A stretch of 29,976 bases of DNA, from positions 1-29,976 of IMG/VR virus record IMGVR_UViG_3300018429_000061, one strand, 5' to 3'. Source of the DNA: a virus. The notes beneath the pieces were generated by a model. It was not told the origin of the DNA, did not search any database, and saw only the letters and a program-made list of their open reading frames with translations. Positions 7,470-28,138 of this stretch are shown piece by piece. How positions within the stretch are numbered: the stretch's first letter is position 1; every line of letters begins with the position of its first letter. A program made the translations under genes and the position numbers.

Positions 7470-7779
7470 CGGCGGGTGCTCCCTTCAACTCGATCAGGAC
7501 ATGGCGCACCAGCTCGTCGAAGCGGTCGGGTGCCTCGGTGATGACCACCCCGGCGCGGTCCTCCCACTTCTCGACGGCGACGCGGATCTTCTCGGTGTCG
7601 ATCCGCCCCTCGGTAAACGTCGGGTCGGGGATACCGAAGTCAGGAACGGCGAGCCGGTCGCCCTTCAGGTAGCGGACGATCGTCCCGACACACGTCCAGA
7701 CGTCGTCGTCGGAGTTCTGGTCGACGACGACCGCGCGGCCGTCCTCGAATCGGAAGGGGTGTGCGAAGTGCGGGATCAC
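7462..7779 (-). CDS. Baseplate wedge protein gp25/gpW family
   Basis: A 105-aa protein of the GPW_gp25 family, which joins the first sheath ring to the baseplate wedge. The motif VPDFGIPDPTF (about 44-54) and a following helix-strand unit (IRVAVEKWEDRAGVVITEA) are characteristic. Its GTG start overlaps the TGA of the upstream gpV-like gene (GTGA), and its 3' end overlaps the gpJ-like gene. The length is usual for the family. The older 'lysozyme' annotation of gp25 does not apply, since no catalytic features are seen. Confidence 0.85.
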   Translation of the reverse strand: MIPHFAHPFRFEDGRAVVVDQNSDDDVWTCVGTIVRYLKGDRLAVPDFGIPDPTFTEGRIDTEKIRVAVEKWEDRAGVVITEAPDRFDELVRHVLIELKGAPADG

Positions 7780-9386
7780 GCTGCCCCCAATCGGGTGAAC
7801 TCGAGCGATGTCTCAGCGATCGCCGCGCCGCCGCGAACGTCCATGTTGGCGCCGAACTCGTGGACCGCCCAAAGCTCGATCTGGTCGTTGACAGCCAGCG
7901 GTAGTTGGCCGCCGAAGTTCACGATCGCGACGGCGCGCGTGTTAGCGGTCGGGCCACCCTCGGAGTAGAGGGCGCCGGTCCCGTTGAGTCGGACTGCTCC
8001 GCCTCGGTTGCCGCCAGCGTTCTGACCGAACGAGATGCGGGCGGTGATGAGGTACAGGCCCGCCTTGCGGACGACCAGGCGGTCGTTGGCGTTATCGAAA
8101 TGCGTGGCCCCGCCGGGCGCGTACTTGTCCCACGCCGTGCCGTCGAAGGTGACCTTCGTGTAGGTGTTGTTGGCGACCGACTGGTTAGACGACTTCGTCA
8201 TCTTCGCCGTGGGCCGCAGCTCGTTGGCGTTAGCCATGTCGAACACCAGCGCCGTCGTGCCGTGAGTGATCGTCCCGTTCGTCGTCAGCATCCAGAGCGT
8301 GTCGGCGTTGACGGTTCCCTCGGAGACCGAGACGATCGACCCTGACTGGAACTCCGACGCGCCGTCCGCGTCGGTAGCTCGCGCGGGTGAAGCGCCGACG
8401 ACGTAGATGCCGTTCTGCGATCCGGTGGTCTGGTCCTTGACTAGCACCCGGTCACCCGTGGCGAGAGAGACGCCGTCGAGCGTGTCGCCGTTGTTTAGCG
8501 CGGTCGAGATCGTGATGTTCGCCGTGGTCGCAGCGCGGGCGCGGTAGATGCCCTCCCCCGCTGCCCCGTTCGTCCCGTTCGCGCCTGCGGCTCCCGCCGC
8601 GCCCGTGGCGCCGAGGTCGCCGGTGCGCGAGAAGTCGAGGCGGATCGGGTCGTCATCTGACAGCGCTCCGTTGCCGGCGATCCACGTCACAGGGTTCCAT
8701 CCGCCCCATGCCCCGACGTCGGTGTAGGCGACGGCGACCTCGTAGACGTGGAAGACGGACGGGTCGACCTCGCTGCGCACGGTCACGAACCCGCGCAGCG
8801 TCGAAGTCGACGACGACCACTCCGCCAGCAGCGCGCCGACGTCGATGCCGTTGGCCTCCAGCTCGCTGAAGAAGAGGACCGTCGCGGCCGTGGGATCAGA
8901 GTCGTTGAGCCGAAGGTAGCCCGCGCCGGGGTTGGCGAGCGTCGTGTCGTCGCTGAACAGGTACGCGATGCCGGCGCTCTGACCCATCGGCCCTCCGGCG
9001 CCGGTCGCGCCCGTCGCCCCGGTAGCTCCCGTCGCCCCAGTTGCGCCCGTGGCACCTGTCGCCCCGGCCGGGCCTTCCGGTCCCTCGGGTCCAGGCGGGC
9101 CGGGCGTGCCGCTGTCAGCGCCGGGCCAGTCGGCGAGCCAGGGCTCGTCGTCCTCGGTGAAGACGACGAGGCCGACATCGCCGGCTGTCGGGTAGGTGCC
9201 GCTGCGTGCGTGCCAGCGGCAGGTGTGGGCGTGCTGGCCGTTGTCGAAGCCGGGTAGCCGGACGTTGATCTCGTCGTCGGGCGAGTCGGCGGTGTTGATG
9301 ACCTGCGCGAGCCAGCCAGCCGGCGTGGGCAGGCCGTCCTCGACCGAGGGCTGCTCGGGCGCGCTGAGTTCGTCGAGGCCGCTCAC
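7776..9386 (-). CDS. gpV-like baseplate protein fused to collagen-like repeats and a C1q-like head
   Basis: A 536-aa protein starting at the GTG that overlaps the hub stop (GTGA). Residues ~20-90 are an OB-fold-like baseplate assembly V domain (WLAQVINTADSPDDEINVRL, then PTAGDVGLVVFTEDDEPWL). Residues ~93-135 are a Gly-X-Y collagen-like run (GPPGPEGPEGPAGA followed by repeated GAT). Residues ~140-250 are a globular beta domain, and 256-279 are a second collagen-like run. Residues ~281-385 are a widespread phage fibre domain (NNGDTLDGVSLATGDRVLVK). Residues ~398-536 resemble a C1q/TNF-like jelly roll (AGLYLITARISF, AVNDQIELWAV). It sits where P2 gpV (spike) is encoded, but the architecture suggests a trimeric side fibre anchored to the hub. 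The collagen runs are certain; the OB and C1q assignments are by pattern. Confidence 0.8.
   Translation of the reverse strand: MSGLDELSAPEQPSVEDGLPTPAGWLAQVINTADSPDDEINVRLPGFDNGQHAHTCRWHARSGTYPTAGDVGLVVFTEDDEPWLADWPGADSGTPGPPGPEGPEGPAGATGATGATGATGATGATGATGAGGPMGQSAGIAYLFSDDTTLANPGAGYLRLNDSDPTAATVLFFSELEANGIDVGALLAEWSSSTSTLRGFVTVRSEVDPSVFHVYEVAVAYTDVGAWGGWNPVTWIAGNGALSDDDPIRLDFSRTGDLGATGAAGAAGANGTNGAAGEGIYRARAATTANITISTALNNGDTLDGVSLATGDRVLVKDQTTGSQNGIYVVGASPARATDADGASEFQSGSIVSVSEGTVNADTLWMLTTNGTITHGTTALVFDMANANELRPTAKMTKSSNQSVANNTYTKVTFDGTAWDKYAPGGATHFDNANDRLVVRKAGLYLITARISFGQNAGGNRGGAVRLNGTGALYSEGGPTANTRAVAIVNFGGQLPLAVNDQIELWAVHEFGANMDVRGGAAIAETSLEFTRLGAA
8565..8636 (-). repeat. Second collagen-like (Gly-X-Y) coding repeat
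   Basis: These bases encode residues ~256-279 of the gpV-like fusion (GDLGATGAAGAAGANGTNGA and a few more), about eight Gly-X-Y triplets. It is shorter than the first run and richer in Ala and Asn. The 9-nt periodicity is imperfect at the DNA level because synonymous codons vary. Confidence 0.75.
8980..9110 (-). repeat. First collagen-like (Gly-X-Y) coding repeat
   Basis: About fourteen Gly-X-Y triplets occur here, at residues ~93-135 of the gpV-like fusion. Pro-rich triplets come first (GPPGPEGPEGPAG), then a run of Gly-Ala-Thr. Thr-containing triplets are common in bacterial and phage collagens, which lack hydroxyproline. Synonymous codon variation within the run suggests selection on the protein rather than recent slippage. 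Confidence 0.85.
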
Positions 9387-11200
9387 AGGTACTCGGCCGG
9401 GTTGACGGGCACGCCCTTGCGGTGGACGCCGAAGTGGAGATGCGGGCCGGTGGAGCTGCCGGTGTTGCCCGACTTCGCGATCTGCTGGCCGCGCGAGACC
9501 TTCTGGCCGGTGCGGACGCCGATCGTCGACAGGTGGGCGTAGAAGGTCGTCAGGCCGCCGTCGTGCTGGATCTCGACGTAGTTGCCGTAGCCGCCGTTGG
9601 GGCCGGCGACGGTGACCTTGCCCGACAGCGCGGCGCGGACGGTCGTGCCCTCCGGTACGCCGATGTCGATGCCGTCGTGGTTGGTCGACCCGATCCCGCC
9701 TGGCGACGACCTGGCGCCGAAGCCGGACGTGACGGTGCCGCCGTCGATGGGGTTGAGCATCCCGTCGCCGTCGCTGCCTATCCCGCCGCGGCCCTCGCTG
9801 CGGCGGACCTCGACGGTCTCGTTCGCAGGCTCGGGCTTTTCGTCGAGCAGCGCACGGCCGCGGCGCAGGGTGATGACGGTGTCGAGGCCGAAGAGGTTGC
9901 GGCTTACGCTGACGACGAGCCAGCGGCCGTTGGCCTGCGGGCCGCATTGCTCGAGGACGACGACCGTGCCTGGCGGCGCCTGCCAGAGCTTCGCCCTGCA
10001 GGTGACGGTCGCCTCGTCGGACGTGCGGCCTACGTCGATGTCGAAGTCGATGTTGTCGACGCCGGAGCTGGCCTCGCTGAAGGTCATCCGGGGGCGTGAC
10101 CGCATCAGGTCTTCCTCGGCGACGAAGAAGAACTTGTCGCCGACGACGAACCGGCGCCAGCCGACCTCCTCGGCGAGCCGGCCGGTCGCCTTCCACGTCG
10201 ACTCCTTGCGGCCGCGCTTGAACCAATACGGCTTCTTGCGCGTGCTGCCGCTGCTGCCGCCGGCGCCTCCGTAGGCATCGACGAGCGCGACGGCCTCGTC
10301 GGCCCAACGGGTCCACGTCGACACGTTGAAGCCGGTACCGCCCCACACAGCGCGGCATATCTCCGCGGGCGTGGCGTCGGGGTTGCGGCGGGCGTACTCG
10401 AGCGCGCCCATGTCGATCGCGGCGCCCTTGAGCAGGAAGTGCTCGACTTGCGCCTCGGGGTCCATGAGGTCGGTTCCGCGAGCGAACTGAGTCTGGAGCT
10501 GCAGCATCCCCTTCGAGAGGCCGTCGCTGGAGTTCGGTGGGTTGCTGAAGCCCGTCTCGTTGATGCCGGCCATCGCGGTTGCGATGAACACGACGCGCGG
10601 CGCGTCGTGGCTCTCGCAGACGTCGAAGGCGCGCTCGGCGAGGTCGAGCTGCGAGCGGGTCGCCGGGGTCTTGCTGTGGCGGATGTAGAGCTTTGCGCCC
10701 TTGGCGATGCCGGGCGCGCGACGGTCGTCCTTGGCCTTGCGCGTCTCGCGCTGCTTGGCCTTGCCGATCTTCTGCTTGACGTGCAGCTCCGGGCAGACGA
10801 GACGGAACCGCGGCTTCTTGATCTCGTTGAGCAGCGCCTTGACGAACTCGGCGCGGGTCGCCTTGCCGCGCATCGTCTTGCGGGCGCCCTTGGCGCGCTT
10901 GAGGACCGCGACGAGGTACTGCTCGAAGACGAGGATCAGATCGTCGCCCTGCTTGCGGATCTGCGCTAGCTCCCACTTCTCGCCGAGGGCGACCATCTGC
11001 ACGCGCGACTTGAACAACGCGGAGCGCAGCAGCTCGCGATCGGAGTCGCGGATCGTCAGCTCGAGCGTCGGCGCGGCCTCGATCGTCGTCTCGACCGACC
11101 CGGCCGTCACGGCGTCGGAGACACGGGCGTCGAGCTTCTTGCCGTCGAGCTTGAACGCAGGCAGCTTGATATCGGCGCTGAGCGCCGCAGGGTCACTCAT
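9383..11200 (-). CDS. Tail hub protein with inserted transglycosylase-like domain and C-terminal M23 peptidase
   Basis: A 605-aa baseplate hub of the gpD/gp27/XkdQ type. Residues ~1-135 carry the hub beta domains (IEAAPTLELTIRDSDRELL, EKWELAQIRKQGDDLILVFE). Residues ~195-315 look like an inserted lysozyme/SLT-like domain (TAMAGINETGFSNPP with candidate catalytic E215, then GLSKGMLQLQ). Hub sequence resumes at ~365-455 (EATVTCRAKLWQAPPGTVVV, DTVITLRRGRALL). Residues ~485-605 are an M23 zinc endopeptidase with H508 and D512 (NHDGIDIG), H556, and H587/H589 (PHLHFGV). The protein would cut glycan strands and peptide crosslinks during injection. A GAAAGGAG Shine-Dalgarno precedes the ATG. The hub and M23 calls are firm; the SLT-like part is moderate. 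Confidence 0.88.
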   Translation of the reverse strand: MSDPAALSADIKLPAFKLDGKKLDARVSDAVTAGSVETTIEAAPTLELTIRDSDRELLRSALFKSRVQMVALGEKWELAQIRKQGDDLILVFEQYLVAVLKRAKGARKTMRGKATRAEFVKALLNEIKKPRFRLVCPELHVKQKIGKAKQRETRKAKDDRRAPGIAKGAKLYIRHSKTPATRSQLDLAERAFDVCESHDAPRVVFIATAMAGINETGFSNPPNSSDGLSKGMLQLQTQFARGTDLMDPEAQVEHFLLKGAAIDMGALEYARRNPDATPAEICRAVWGGTGFNVSTWTRWADEAVALVDAYGGAGGSSGSTRKKPYWFKRGRKESTWKATGRLAEEVGWRRFVVGDKFFFVAEEDLMRSRPRMTFSEASSGVDNIDFDIDVGRTSDEATVTCRAKLWQAPPGTVVVLEQCGPQANGRWLVVSVSRNLFGLDTVITLRRGRALLDEKPEPANETVEVRRSEGRGGIGSDGDGMLNPIDGGTVTSGFGARSSPGGIGSTNHDGIDIGVPEGTTVRAALSGKVTVAGPNGGYGNYVEIQHDGGLTTFYAHLSTIGVRTGQKVSRGQQIAKSGNTGSSTGPHLHFGVHRKGVPVNPAEYL

Positions 11201-17783: not shown

Positions 17784-18208
17784 GGCGTCATGTGCCTCCT
17801 GAGAAGTCGGAAGATGCGTTTGCGGTCCTGGGTGGAGATCCCGATGACGGCTCGCCTCTGCTGCTGAAAGCGGGCGACGTAGCGCTTCGTGCCAACCCGG
17901 ACCTGGAACTTCGCGACGCGCTTGACGGCGCCCTCGCCGCCGGTGAGGCTCGCCTCGAGGTCGCCCATCGCGCGCAGCACTTCGGGACTGAGGCCCTGGC
18001 GTGCCTTGCGCTCCAGGGTCGACGTCGCCAGCGCGGGCCACGGCTCTCCGAACTCGCCGCCGCCGGCCTCGAAGTTGCGGGCTATGCCCTCCTCGATGAT
18101 GTCGCCGATGTCGGTGAGTACCGGCCGGAGATTCACCGCGCGGTCGCCGAGCTGGTCGATGACCTTGATCGCCGCGCGGTCGCCCTTGATGTCGAGGTCG
18201 AACCTCAC
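17780..18208 (-). CDS. Tail completion protein (phage virion morphogenesis / gpS-like)
   Basis: A 142-aa protein. The segment GEPWPALATSTLERKARQG is the signature of the Phage_tail_S/virion morphogenesis family (P2 gpS, Mu gpG), which completes the tail end so that it can join the head. The N-terminus has a helix pair (LTDIGDIIEEGIARNFEAGG), and the C-terminus is basic (DRKRIFRLLRRH). It lies between the connector and the probable tail terminator with overlapping stops and starts on both sides. It is the same overall size as family members. Confidence 0.75.
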   Translation of the reverse strand: MRFDLDIKGDRAAIKVIDQLGDRAVNLRPVLTDIGDIIEEGIARNFEAGGGEFGEPWPALATSTLERKARQGLSPEVLRAMGDLEASLTGGEGAVKRVAKFQVRVGTKRYVARFQQQRRAVIGISTQDRKRIFRLLRRHMTP

Positions 18209-18624
18209 CCCTCGTCTTCCTCATCCGGCTCGGGTTCGGGTACGCGGCGGAGGAAGAGACGCTTGTTGACCTGCGCGACGAGCGTCCTGACGGCCTCGCC
18301 GTAGTCGAGACGAAGCGACTGGTAGGTCGTGCGATCGGTCGTGTTGCCGGCCTGCTCAGGCGTGAAGCCCAGCTCGATGAGCATCCCCGTGCGCAACGCG
18401 ACGCAGTTGCGGTAGGCCTCGTGGAGATCGTCGTCGACCGTCCCGCCGACGCGCATATGCACGTCGGCGGTGGCGGTAGCGATCAGGCTCGTGACCTGAG
18501 CGGCGGTCGGCCGGGTGTTCGCGGTGAACGTGCCCGACTCCTCGCCGCCCGCGCCGTCGCTCGCGCGGGTGCGGGCGTGGAGGATCGCCCCGACTTGGGC
18601 GACTGTCGGCGCGGTGATGGGCAT
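18205..18624 (-). CDS. Head-tail connector/adaptor protein
   Basis: A 139-aa protein with a helical core: TAAQVTSLIATATADVHMRV, DDDLHEAYRNCVALRTGMLI and TTYQSLRLDYGEAVRTLVAQ. It ends in a Glu/Asp/Pro-rich tail. The helical bundle and the position after capsid genes and before tail completion fit gp6/gp15-type head completion proteins, which attach to the portal. The ATG is 3 nt downstream of the preceding stop. No specific motif proves the role. Confidence 0.65.
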   Translation of the reverse strand: MPITAPTVAQVGAILHARTRASDGAGGEESGTFTANTRPTAAQVTSLIATATADVHMRVGGTVDDDLHEAYRNCVALRTGMLIELGFTPEQAGNTTDRTTYQSLRLDYGEAVRTLVAQVNKRLFLRRVPEPEPDEEDEG

Positions 18625-18627
18625 CGC

Positions 18628-18924
18628 CTAGTCGCCGGAGCTGCGAGCGTCGAGGATCGCGGTGACGACCTCGTCCTTGTTCGCCAGCTTGTCGGGGTCG
18701 GTGACGCCCTCGTCGCGGGCGATGCCGTCGAGGATCGGCCGCGTGAGGGCCTTCAGCTCGTCGGCGGTCTGGGCGACGTGGCCGGGGTCGCTCGCGGGCG
18801 CAGGCGCCGGCGCCACGTCGTCGAAGCCTGGTGGGATCGGCTGGCCGGGCGCGGCGACGAGCACCGTGCGGCCGTACTGGTCCTGCCCGTAGATGCGTCG
18901 GTCAGCGATTCGCTTCTCGGCCAT
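18628..18924 (-). CDS. Possible internally started small head protein (HeH/Rho-N-like domain)
   Basis: The last 98 codons of the glycosyltransferase ORF look like a stand-alone head-module protein. A short basic N-terminus (MAEKRIADRRIYGQDQYGR) leads to a Pro/Ala linker and then a helix-extension-helix pattern, ELKALTRPILDGIARDEGV followed by NKDEVVTAILDA. Such small HeH/Rho_N-like proteins are common next to major capsid genes. An internal ATG (18924-18922) has a GAAAGAGAG purine tract ~8 nt upstream. It may be translated separately as well as being part of the 344-aa fusion; proteomics would be needed to separate these. Confidence 0.5.
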   Translation of the reverse strand: MAEKRIADRRIYGQDQYGRTVLVAAPGQPIPPGFDDVAPAPAPASDPGHVAQTADELKALTRPILDGIARDEGVTDPDKLANKDEVVTAILDARSSGD

Positions 18925-19662
18925 TGCGATGTCTCTCTTTCGTGTTCGAGTTGCGGGCCGCGCCCGGAGGGCGCTGACGGCTCTGTTCACGCGCCCGCGG
19001 CGAACGGGGTGATCGGCCTTGTAGTAGGCGCGCTTTGCGGCGAGACGGTCCTCGTCGCGCAAGTTCGGGTGATGCTCGATGCAGACCTGATCGACGAGCG
19101 GCAGCAGCGATTCGCCGCGGCCGTCGTAGGGCTCGATGCGGATGCCGGCGGCGATGTAGTGGCCGGGGCAGATGCACTCGAGGTCCGGTGTCCAGGGAAA
19201 GACGCGCAGCGCCGGCCGGGGCGTCGGGCGGTAGTCCCCTTTGGGGAAGTTCGCCCGCACGCCTGGCAGGTCGTTCGGGCCGATTGACTGGAGCAGCACG
19301 TTCACCGGCCCCGGCGGGATCGACGAGAAGGTGCCGGCGACGCGCTCGTCGGCGTCGAGGACGAAGAGGTGGTCGCCGTCAACCGCGCCGCAGCCGTGGA
19401 ACATCGCGGTGCGCTTGGCGCCCTGGTCGTCCCATAGGGCCGACGTGGGGTGAAAGATCGCCCCAGCCTCCGACGCCACGGTAGCCGTGGCGTCGGTCGA
19501 GCCGGGTTGCTTCGCTGCTGCGAACGCGGGGCCGTTGTTGCCTGCTCGCCAGGCCCCGTCGAACACATGGACTTCGCCTACTCCGGCGGCGAGCGCTGAC
19601 CGGATCGCGTCGTGGAGAAGGCCCTCCTCGTTGTAGGCAGCGACTACGCAGAGGAGGGCCAT
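18628..19662 (-). CDS. Family-2 glycosyltransferase embedded in the head operon, with C-terminal head-type domain
   Basis: A 344-aa ORF directly after the major capsid gene. Residues ~1-185 resemble a GT-A fold family-2 glycosyltransferase: CVVAAYNEEGLLHDAIRSAL at the nucleotide-sugar site, then DGAW, and LFVLDADERV (~98-107) as the DxD-like metal site. Residues ~186-246 hold ICPGHYIAAGIRIEPYDGRG-like and basic helical sequence. The remaining ~98 residues match a small HeH-type head protein with no stop between them. The enzyme would transfer a sugar from an activated donor. The target is not shown by the sequence; the gene order makes virion glycosylation (capsid or tail) the leading inference, over modification of DNA or host wall. 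The Shine-Dalgarno is weak. Confidence 0.75.
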   Translation of the reverse strand: MALLCVVAAYNEEGLLHDAIRSALAAGVGEVHVFDGAWRAGNNGPAFAAAKQPGSTDATATVASEAGAIFHPTSALWDDQGAKRTAMFHGCGAVDGDHLFVLDADERVAGTFSSIPPGPVNVLLQSIGPNDLPGVRANFPKGDYRPTPRPALRVFPWTPDLECICPGHYIAAGIRIEPYDGRGESLLPLVDQVCIEHHPNLRDEDRLAAKRAYYKADHPVRRGRVNRAVSALRARPATRTRKRDIAMAEKRIADRRIYGQDQYGRTVLVAAPGQPIPPGFDDVAPAPAPASDPGHVAQTADELKALTRPILDGIARDEGVTDPDKLANKDEVVTAILDARSSGD

Positions 19663-19668
19663 TTCCGG

Positions 19669-21051
19669 TTAGGAGGTCGGCACGCTGATCTCGCAGAACG
19701 CCTCGGGCGTCGGCACGATCAGACCGGCCTGGAACTCCGCGAGGATCGCCACCAAGTTGCGGGTGAAGAAATCCTCGTGGGAGTCGGACACCAGCACGTT
19801 GACCGCCTCACGGATGAGGAACTCAGCCGAGCGCCAGTCGCCGACCATCGGGTTGCCGTGCGGGAACTGCGGACCCGTGACGACGGGACGGCCCCACAGG
19901 GTCGTCTCGCCGGCCTGGGACGGCGGGCCGAACATGTACTGCCCGGTGTCGGCCGTGGCGCCAGAGGCGTCGCGGTGGAGCCGGATGTCCTCCCAGTCCT
20001 GGGAGTTGATCCCCGTCGCAGTGACGCGGAAGAACGCCAGCTCGACCTTGGTCATCCCGCGAAGGATGTCCTCCATCAGGACGCCGTCGTTGTCCTGGTG
20101 CTGGACGCCCGGCTGGTTGTAGATGCCGGTCAGGTTGTCCCCGATGCCGTCGCCGGTGAGGATCTCGTCCTCAACGACGTCGTCGAGGCCCCAGCGCAGC
20201 CGGCCCTCGATCGTGGAACGCAGCCGCGGCACGTCGCCGAGCGACTTGCGGGTCGCCGCGACCCAGTGCGCGAGCGTCTGCACCGGGGCGTCACGCTTCT
20301 CGTAGGAGAGGCGAGACTGCGGCTTGCGGCCACCCTGCGCCGCGGTGACGCCACCGCCGATCGGCGCGTCGGTCGACGCCTCGGGCACGACCGCCGCGTT
20401 GTTGACGTAGCCCGTCTCGACGATGTAGTCGATCGAGTCGGAGTCCGTCGTGCCGACCGTGATGAGATCACGGACGAGGTGCGGCCGGAAGCGCGGCTCG
20501 ACGAGCCCGCGATGCTCCGGCTCGATGAACGCGCGGACGTTGTCCGCACCCTCGCCATCGGTGACGATGACCGACGCCGAGCGCCCGCCGGAGAGCTGGT
20601 GGGCCAGCTCATCGCGAGACATCATCTCGCCGAGCTGCATCCGCCCGAAGCGCGTCGAGGACTTGAACGCCCCCGAAGCCTTCAGCTCCTTGTACTGCTC
20701 CGAGGCGACGACGCGCGCGCCGAACGACTCGACGGAGTGCAGGCCGTCCTTGATCCGCTCGCGGACCTCGCGGAGCGGTCCCGGCCCCTCGGACCCGCGC
20801 TCGCCCTGCATCGCCCAGAGCGACTCGCGGACGCCCTTCATCTTCTCGACCTCGTCGGCGAGCTCGCCGTGACGGCGATGCGCCTCGTGGGCCTTCTGGA
20901 AGGGCTCCGAGGTCTCGTCGGTGATGTCGACGTCGGAGTCCGCCAGCTTGCCCCGGAGATCGTCGAACTCGGTCCACGCCTCCTTGGCCTCGGTGGTCTT
21001 GCTCTCGATCTGCGCGTCAAGCGTGCGCAGCTTGTCCTTCAGTGCAGCCAT
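19669..21051 (-). CDS. HK97-fold major capsid protein
   Basis: A 460-aa protein. Residues ~1-130 are a long charged coiled coil (KDKLRTLDAQIESKTTEAKE, HRRHGELADEVEKMKG) that acts as an internal scaffolding delta domain and is normally removed by the prohead protease. The remainder has HK97-type landmarks: VPEASTDAPIGG in the E-loop region, VAATRKSLGDVPRLRSTIEG for the spine helix, LTGDGIGDNLTGIYNQPGV, and the C-terminal FFTRNLVAILAEFQAGLIVP strand. It is preceded by the S49 protease gene and forms the icosahedral shell. The cleavage site is not identifiable by eye. The call is firm. Confidence 0.95.
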   Translation of the reverse strand: MAALKDKLRTLDAQIESKTTEAKEAWTEFDDLRGKLADSDVDITDETSEPFQKAHEAHRRHGELADEVEKMKGVRESLWAMQGERGSEGPGPLREVRERIKDGLHSVESFGARVVASEQYKELKASGAFKSSTRFGRMQLGEMMSRDELAHQLSGGRSASVIVTDGEGADNVRAFIEPEHRGLVEPRFRPHLVRDLITVGTTDSDSIDYIVETGYVNNAAVVPEASTDAPIGGGVTAAQGGRKPQSRLSYEKRDAPVQTLAHWVAATRKSLGDVPRLRSTIEGRLRWGLDDVVEDEILTGDGIGDNLTGIYNQPGVQHQDNDGVLMEDILRGMTKVELAFFRVTATGINSQDWEDIRLHRDASGATADTGQYMFGPPSQAGETTLWGRPVVTGPQFPHGNPMVGDWRSAEFLIREAVNVLVSDSHEDFFTRNLVAILAEFQAGLIVPTPEAFCEISVPTS

Positions 21052-26541: not shown

Positions 26542-27057
26542 CTATGCCAGCTTCCAGTTGGTCAGGGTCGCGCGCAGCTCAGCTGCGTCGGTCGCGTGGG
26601 TGAAGCGCTCGAAGCCCTCGCGCAACGGGTCGATCGCCTCGTAGTCGCGGTACATCGAAGCGAGCTTGCCCTTCGGTACGCGGTCGCCCTCCGGGCGGGC
26701 GGCGTTGCGCTCGAGTACCTGCTCCCACGTCAGCGGGAAGATGACGAGGCTGATCGGCGCGCGGCAGCGTTGGGCGTAGCGCTTGAGGCTGGCGCGCGCG
26801 GCTGCGCTGATCGCCGTCGAGTCGAAGAGGACGACAGCGGCCGAGAACTCCAGCGCGTCGCGGGTCTGGTCGTAGGCCAGGTTGAAGGCGTCCCGCGTGA
26901 CGCGCTGGTCGCGTGGGCCAGTGCCGACGATCGCGCGGCACGCATCGACCGAGATGTGGATCACGCGGCCGGCGATGTTCTGCTCGGCGGCGGTCGACTT
27001 GCCAGAGCCCGGCATCCCGCATAGAGCGACGAGCGCCGGGCGCGGCGGTGTCAGCAT
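26542..27057 (-). CDS. P-loop polynucleotide/small-molecule kinase-like protein
   Basis: A 171-aa P-loop kinase. Walker A is GMPGSGKST (~14-22). A DSTAISAAARASLKRYA segment (~79-95) matches the D.T....R..L pattern of T4 polynucleotide-kinase-like and zeta-toxin-like kinases, and VPKGKLASMYRDYEAID is the lid-type helix. The fold would transfer the ATP gamma phosphate to a 5'-OH nucleic-acid end or a small substrate. It lies just upstream of the packaging genes and downstream of the HNH gene, so end repair of DNA or RNA is a reasonable idea. No phosphatase or ligase partner is visible in the window. The start overlaps the upstream gene by 7 nt. Confidence 0.8.
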   Translation of the reverse strand: MLTPPRPALVALCGMPGSGKSTAAEQNIAGRVIHISVDACRAIVGTGPRDQRVTRDAFNLAYDQTRDALEFSAAVVLFDSTAISAAARASLKRYAQRCRAPISLVIFPLTWEQVLERNAARPEGDRVPKGKLASMYRDYEAIDPLREGFERFTHATDAAELRATLTNWKLA

Positions 27058-27538: not shown

Positions 27539-28138
27539 CTACTCCTCGCCAGGGCAGTCGTCGGAGCCATGCTCGGTCAGGCAGCGTGGGCACTCGGCCC
27601 GGTCGTGCGCCAGGCCGTCGATGTCAACGGTCGCAAGCGACTCGTTGCCGGCGTACTCCCAGCCCATGCGAGCGCGGCGGGCGAACAGCTCAAGGTGTGG
27701 GCCGGGCGAGACGCGCTCGACCATGTCGAGGAACGCCTCCGGTTTCTGCGAGTGCCGACGCTGACGGGGCCAGTGGAACGCGCTCTGGCCGACCTGCTCG
27801 TTAGCGGCCAGCGATCCGCGCCTGGCGAAGAGGACGAACTCCGTCGAGATGCGGTAGGTGCCGCCGAGGCCCGAGCCGGTGATCGGCTTGCACCACGTCA
27901 GCAGCGTCGAGGGCTTGAAGCCCCACGCTCGAGCGACGCGATAGGCGTCCTCGACATAGCGGTTGATCGTCCAGAGGTAGAGGTGCGAGTCGGGCGCCGC
28001 CCAGTGCCGCACGTTCAGCGCGGCGATCTCGTCAACGCTCAACGTCGGGTACGGCAGCGGCCGAGAGTCGCCGCCCTTCCATCCGTTGCCGCCCTTGATC
28101 GTCCAAGGCGGATCGGCCACAACGCATCGGAACAGCAT
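27539..28138 (-). CDS. MT-A70-family adenine N6-methyltransferase
   Basis: A 199-aa protein with the catalytic DPPW motif at residues 9-12. YPTLSVDEIAAL and HLYLWTINRYVEDAYRVARA are the conserved MT-A70 segments, and RRHSQKPEAFLDMVERVSPG with LELFARR forms the AdoMet-binding end. It methylates adenine N6 in DNA (bacterial members) using S-adenosylmethionine. The last ~20 residues add a CPRC...H...C cluster that may bind zinc. No cognate restriction enzyme is visible, so it is probably an orphan modification enzyme that protects phage DNA from host restriction. The start is supported by GGAGG 8 nt upstream. Confidence 0.9.
   Translation of the reverse strand: MLFRCVVADPPWTIKGGNGWKGGDSRPLPYPTLSVDEIAALNVRHWAAPDSHLYLWTINRYVEDAYRVARAWGFKPSTLLTWCKPITGSGLGGTYRISTEFVLFARRGSLAANEQVGQSAFHWPRQRRHSQKPEAFLDMVERVSPGPHLELFARRARMGWEYAGNESLATVDIDGLAHDRAECPRCLTEHGSDDCPGEE

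Follow-up and report, generated by a model that had tools for sequence, protein, structure and literature searches.

Does this phage join a glycosyltransferase (GT) to one of its own head proteins, and is the virus particle what such an enzyme would glycosylate? The question is raised by one open reading frame (ORF) in a single IMG/VR virus record, IMGVR_UViG_3300018429_000061, which in its entirety (29,976 bases) forms the window, that is, the whole stretch of DNA analyzed here. Its late genes lie on the minus strand in the order terminase, portal, S49 protease, HK97-type capsid, and GT/small-protein ORF, followed by a 139 aa gene, a PF05069 tail-completion protein, sheath, tape measure, and baseplate J; judged by this late gene set, the window belongs to an uncultured, contractile-tailed phage. 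Querying viral contigs with its capsid and terminase revealed no close relatives. The features of the locus are as follows.

19669..21051, minus strand: major capsid protein gene, HK97 type (PF05065, E 2e-33; phrog_10 major head protein, 9e-37).
18628..19662, minus strand: continuous ORF of 344 aa, GT plus small head-type protein (ATG start, open throughout).
18979..19662, minus strand: GT part, residues 1 to about 228, GT-A fold by prediction (PF13641, family profile, AF2, Foldseek).
18925..19014, minus strand: junction, codons 217-246, non-coding-like by codon score, carrying the putative ribosome-binding site (RBS) of the small protein.
18933..18941, minus strand: Shine-Dalgarno-like GAAAGAGAG, 8 nt before the internal ATG at 18924 (duplex, -4.9 kcal/mol).
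18628..18924, minus strand: small head-type protein, 98 aa from the ATG at 18924, readable alone (codon usage normal from codon 247).
18640..18765, minus strand: two predicted helices, residues 300-341, HeH/Rho-N-like (AF2, pLDDT about 80-90).
18205..18624, minus strand: next head gene, 139 aa, starting just past the stop of the small protein, with a poor RBS.

The last of these had no Pfam or phrog family match and, by its position, is probably the head-tail adaptor. The reading that we favor, at a probability of roughly one half, is that the head-operon GT adds sugar to a head protein of the virion, and that the small head protein is also made from an internal start.

The ORF is real and matches its description in the earlier note, which had not given its strand: AAYNEE is found at residues 8-13 and DADE at residues 103-106, and the ATG lies 6 nt past the capsid stop. 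Compared with the Pfam GT2 models, residues 1-246 alone matched PF13641 (E 7.8e-6), and the curated cut-offs were narrowly missed (PF13641, 26.5 versus 27 bits; PF00535, 23.2 versus 23.3 bits). Searches with the window's own protein yielded no relatives, with only chance-level tblastn matches in 50,697 phage records and nothing in pattern scans of viral and genome contigs. The family was opened by a DNA pattern derived from DG..-STD.T-W..[EQ]..KR, which matched seven IMG/VR contigs; alignments of these seven served to enlarge the contig set, and a profile of 15 phage relatives, with the window left out, scored the window at 87 bits (E 6e-26, Z=1000) over residues 2-223. Although the set was seeded with the window's own motif, the match extends beyond the seeding pattern to the N-terminus, DADE, and the late H, R and YY region. 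In the alignment, the GT part carries DG / STDxT / WxxQxxKR / DADE / late H and YY, with the DxD-type DADE invariant across the family. No Pfam GT match was obtained at 1e-3 in three of the contigs (L015, L016, and L017), indicating that annotation mostly overlooks the family.

The AF2 model of the ORF has a confident GT-A core (pLDDT about 90), and all Foldseek hits at E<1e-3 were GT-A. By family and predicted fold, residues 1 to about 228 are a genuine phage glycosyltransferase of the GT-A/GT2 type. The best solved-structure (PDB) matches were the peptide S-glycosyltransferases SunS/ThuS (E 2e-8), which are GT2 enzymes with a protein acceptor. However, they share only 11-13% identity with the window GT, the window has no lanthipeptide-type bacteriocin context, and a likeness between a modeled fold and SunS/ThuS leaves the acceptor unfixed.

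As had been noted earlier, the frame runs open for 344 codons from the GT into the C-terminal part. Codon usage backs frame 0 up to roughly codon 215 and once more from roughly codon 247 onward, whereas at codons 216-246 no frame is coding-like and the codon score falls below all 566 control windows; no coding signature was found across this fusion junction. At the base composition of the window, a run of 16-31 non-coding codons has a 57-75% chance of containing no stop, so that an uninterrupted frame is by itself weak evidence that the fusion is functional. The internal Shine-Dalgarno sequence is only moderate, 18.5% of internal starts being as good, and the GT start ATG lacks Shine-Dalgarno pairing (+0.4 kcal/mol). 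The junction resembles intergenic DNA bearing the RBS of the small protein, which probably keeps its own start. A perfect 6-bp hairpin (GCGCCC-TCC-GGGCGC; 18960-18974) also lies in the junction, 36 nt upstream of the internal ATG.

Residues 247-344 form a separate small head-type part ending in two predicted helices (residues 300-318 and 329-341). These helices are consistent with the HeH/Rho-N-like tail proposed from the sequence at first reading, but a Pfam scan of the C-terminal part matched no model; phrog_970, a family of unknown function, matches this part weakly (E 0.0016).

Both fused and separate arrangements occur among relatives. The earlier note had held that a stop between the two parts in relatives would mark the fusion as an artefact; such a stop is present in three contigs (L017, L019, and L037), and the frame is continuous in two others (L015 and L016). 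Separate small genes occupy the matching slot in the former three. In L017, the TAG that ends the GT overlaps the GTG at which a 143 aa small protein begins, and the small protein of L019 ends, by eye, in a HeH-resembling stretch. The fused tail of L016 is homologous to the separate small protein of L017 (47% over 118 aa, 3e-34), with no stop before it. The joins of L015 and L016 each carry an RBS and an in-frame GTG, and the L016 site (-12.0) is the strongest start of its ORF. These two contigs (IMG/VR 3300009285_000361 and 2626541855_000006, respectively) share with the window a capsid, a GT with a small C-terminal domain in frame, and an adaptor, but their C-terminal domains have no detectable relation to that of the window: homology to the fused tails was tested and not found, and the window's own small domain is present in none of the five contigs. 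The AF2 model of the L016 tail (pTM 0.36) was too weak for a structure search.

These findings bear on a simpler account, namely that the locus consists of two ordinary genes whose GT stop is missing through an assembly or sequencing error or a recent stop loss, leaving a fusion without function. The non-coding-like junction, the ease with which such a stretch stays open, and the stop in three relatives all point in this direction, as does a TGA in the +1 frame at ORF nt 674, close to where the relatives end. On the other hand, neither codon usage nor the profile shows a clear preference for the +1 frame, or in the case of the profile for any other frame, at the GT end, and the frame is continuous in L015 and L016 too, suggesting that loss of the stop is tolerated or kept. 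Overall, we regard this account as rather unlikely, though the strongest of the competitors.

Under the favored reading of a head-operon GT with an internally started small protein, we infer the following course of events. Within the head operon, the GT gene follows the capsid gene and precedes that of a small head protein; having no RBS of its own and a start 6 nt past the capsid stop, the GT would probably be made at a low level through translational coupling to the capsid. By position, the enzyme would modify a virion head protein, the likeliest being the major capsid protein, whose gene lies immediately upstream. The small head protein would be made mainly from its own start at ATG 18924. 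Since no stop separates the two parts, some full-length GT-head protein would be expected as a second product, if the frame is as read, and could carry the enzyme to the growing head.

A working GT-head fusion that tethers the enzyme is possible on the basis of the sequence, and the arrangement found in three contigs, one frame for both parts plus an internal start, could be a way to couple the enzyme to head assembly. A more ambitious version, a recurrent design in which a virion GT and a small head protein share one frame with an internal RBS, so that free head protein is produced along with a few enzyme-tagged copies that bring the enzyme onto the growing head and couple glycosylation to assembly, seems doubtful to us. 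The literature searched yielded no description of a GT-head fusion that has an internal start. The proposal in the earlier note that the fusion places the enzyme on the assembling head is weakened by the intergenic-like junction with its RBS and by the relatives, three of which keep the genes separate and two of which are fused, both with an RBS and a start at the join.

The target of the enzyme was considered from its genomic position. Six phage contigs other than the window place a member of this GT family behind the capsid gene, directly in L015, L017, L019, L037, and L057, and with an IS605 TnpB gene in between in L016. In four of them (L015, L017, L019, and L057), a head-tail adaptor (phrog_442) follows the GT, directly or past one small gene. 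The recurrence in other phages of this slot between capsid and connectors favors a virion target. Further family members lie among tail genes, before the presumed tail tube gene (assigned by position and size only), so that the target need not be the capsid. In L006, the closest contig by portal (48%), the slot holds a small gene and no GT; the GT thus looks like an optional insert ahead of the small post-capsid gene.

Several of these neighborhoods have features of their own. The inserted gene in L016 (4832-5938) encodes an OrfB-type TnpB with a Cas12f-like TNB domain and separates the capsid gene from the GT-head ORF. In L027 (1079-3961), a capsid-like gene is followed by genes for a small protein whose tail resembles Rho_N, a 187 aa protein that by eye resembles the GroES co-chaperonin (no Pfam match), and a 634 aa GT of this family. 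Among tail genes, the GT stands behind a fused domain that by eye resembles a SAM methyltransferase in L021, L022, and L028, and beside a protein that by eye resembles a sulfotransferase in L029 and L030; a Pfam check confirmed neither assignment. L024 (5986-8709) has three to four tandem GT-like genes within its structural operon.

To our knowledge, demonstrations of virion glycosylation are limited to a few phages. Its performance by phage enzymes, to which the earlier note had appealed for some actinobacteriophages, is established for mycobacteriophages, according to passages in PMC12363180 and PMC12619734 that both cite Freeman et al. 2023. In cluster J mycobacteriophages (Omega, Thibault, and others), 8-10 genes, several GTs among them, are inserted between capsid and connectors (PMC3706429). 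Superphikiman gp21, from the same cluster, lies in the corresponding interval, directly before a small head-tail connector gene, and scores 74 bits against the family profile, compared with 87 bits for the window, both over the whole domain. Unlike the contractile-tailed phage of the window, Superphikiman is a siphophage with several GTs and a methyltransferase, and there gp21 forms a gene of its own, terminated by a stop. The passages on Che8, Corndog, and Myrna likewise describe phage-encoded GTs, with a proposed role in adding sugar to the capsid or tail tube. However, Che8 gp108-110 are encoded at the genome's right end and did not match the family profile even with all filters off; that a phage whose virion glycans are proven has enzymes outside this family counts against the virion-glycosylation reading. 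Taken with its position, the sequence nevertheless suggests that the GT most likely decorates the virus particle, as already outlined in mycobacterium phages. The recurrence of a GT family, for the most part undetected by Pfam, right after the capsid in distantly related phages suggests that virion glycosylation may be more widespread, and capsid-adjacent placement could provide a positional rule for finding it.

GT2 enzymes have a broad acceptor range, and wall-teichoic-acid and polysaccharide GTs were also among the Foldseek hits, which would suit an enzyme acting outside the virion, on phage DNA, the host cell wall, or a surface polysaccharide. Glycosylation of phage DNA is known, as cited in a passage of PMC12619734. 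We nonetheless judge such a target quite unlikely: in the window and in six relatives the GT neighbors the capsid gene, other members lie among tail genes, and no base-hypermodification or sugar-nucleotide gene was present among the scanned proteins of the window, a contig that may be incomplete. The virion reading thus retains the parts of the earlier interpretation that concern a genuine GT in the head operon and a recurrent slot, but not the obligate fusion. Such a fusion, in which the small head domain exists solely as a C-terminal extension of the GT and serves to fix the enzyme to the head, is very improbable, because the frame, though open in the window, L015, and L016, carries an internal RBS at the join in all three, the window linker is non-coding-like, relatives have free small proteins, and a structural protein would have to be produced with no RBS dedicated to it.

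Elsewhere in the window, outside the structural operon, genes for an AAA_33-type kinase (26542-27057) and an MT-A70-type methyltransferase (27539-28138) were observed. A long ORF at 7776-10976 contains collagen-like GXX repeats (GATGATG...) and is probably a fibre or spike gene whose true start lies later.
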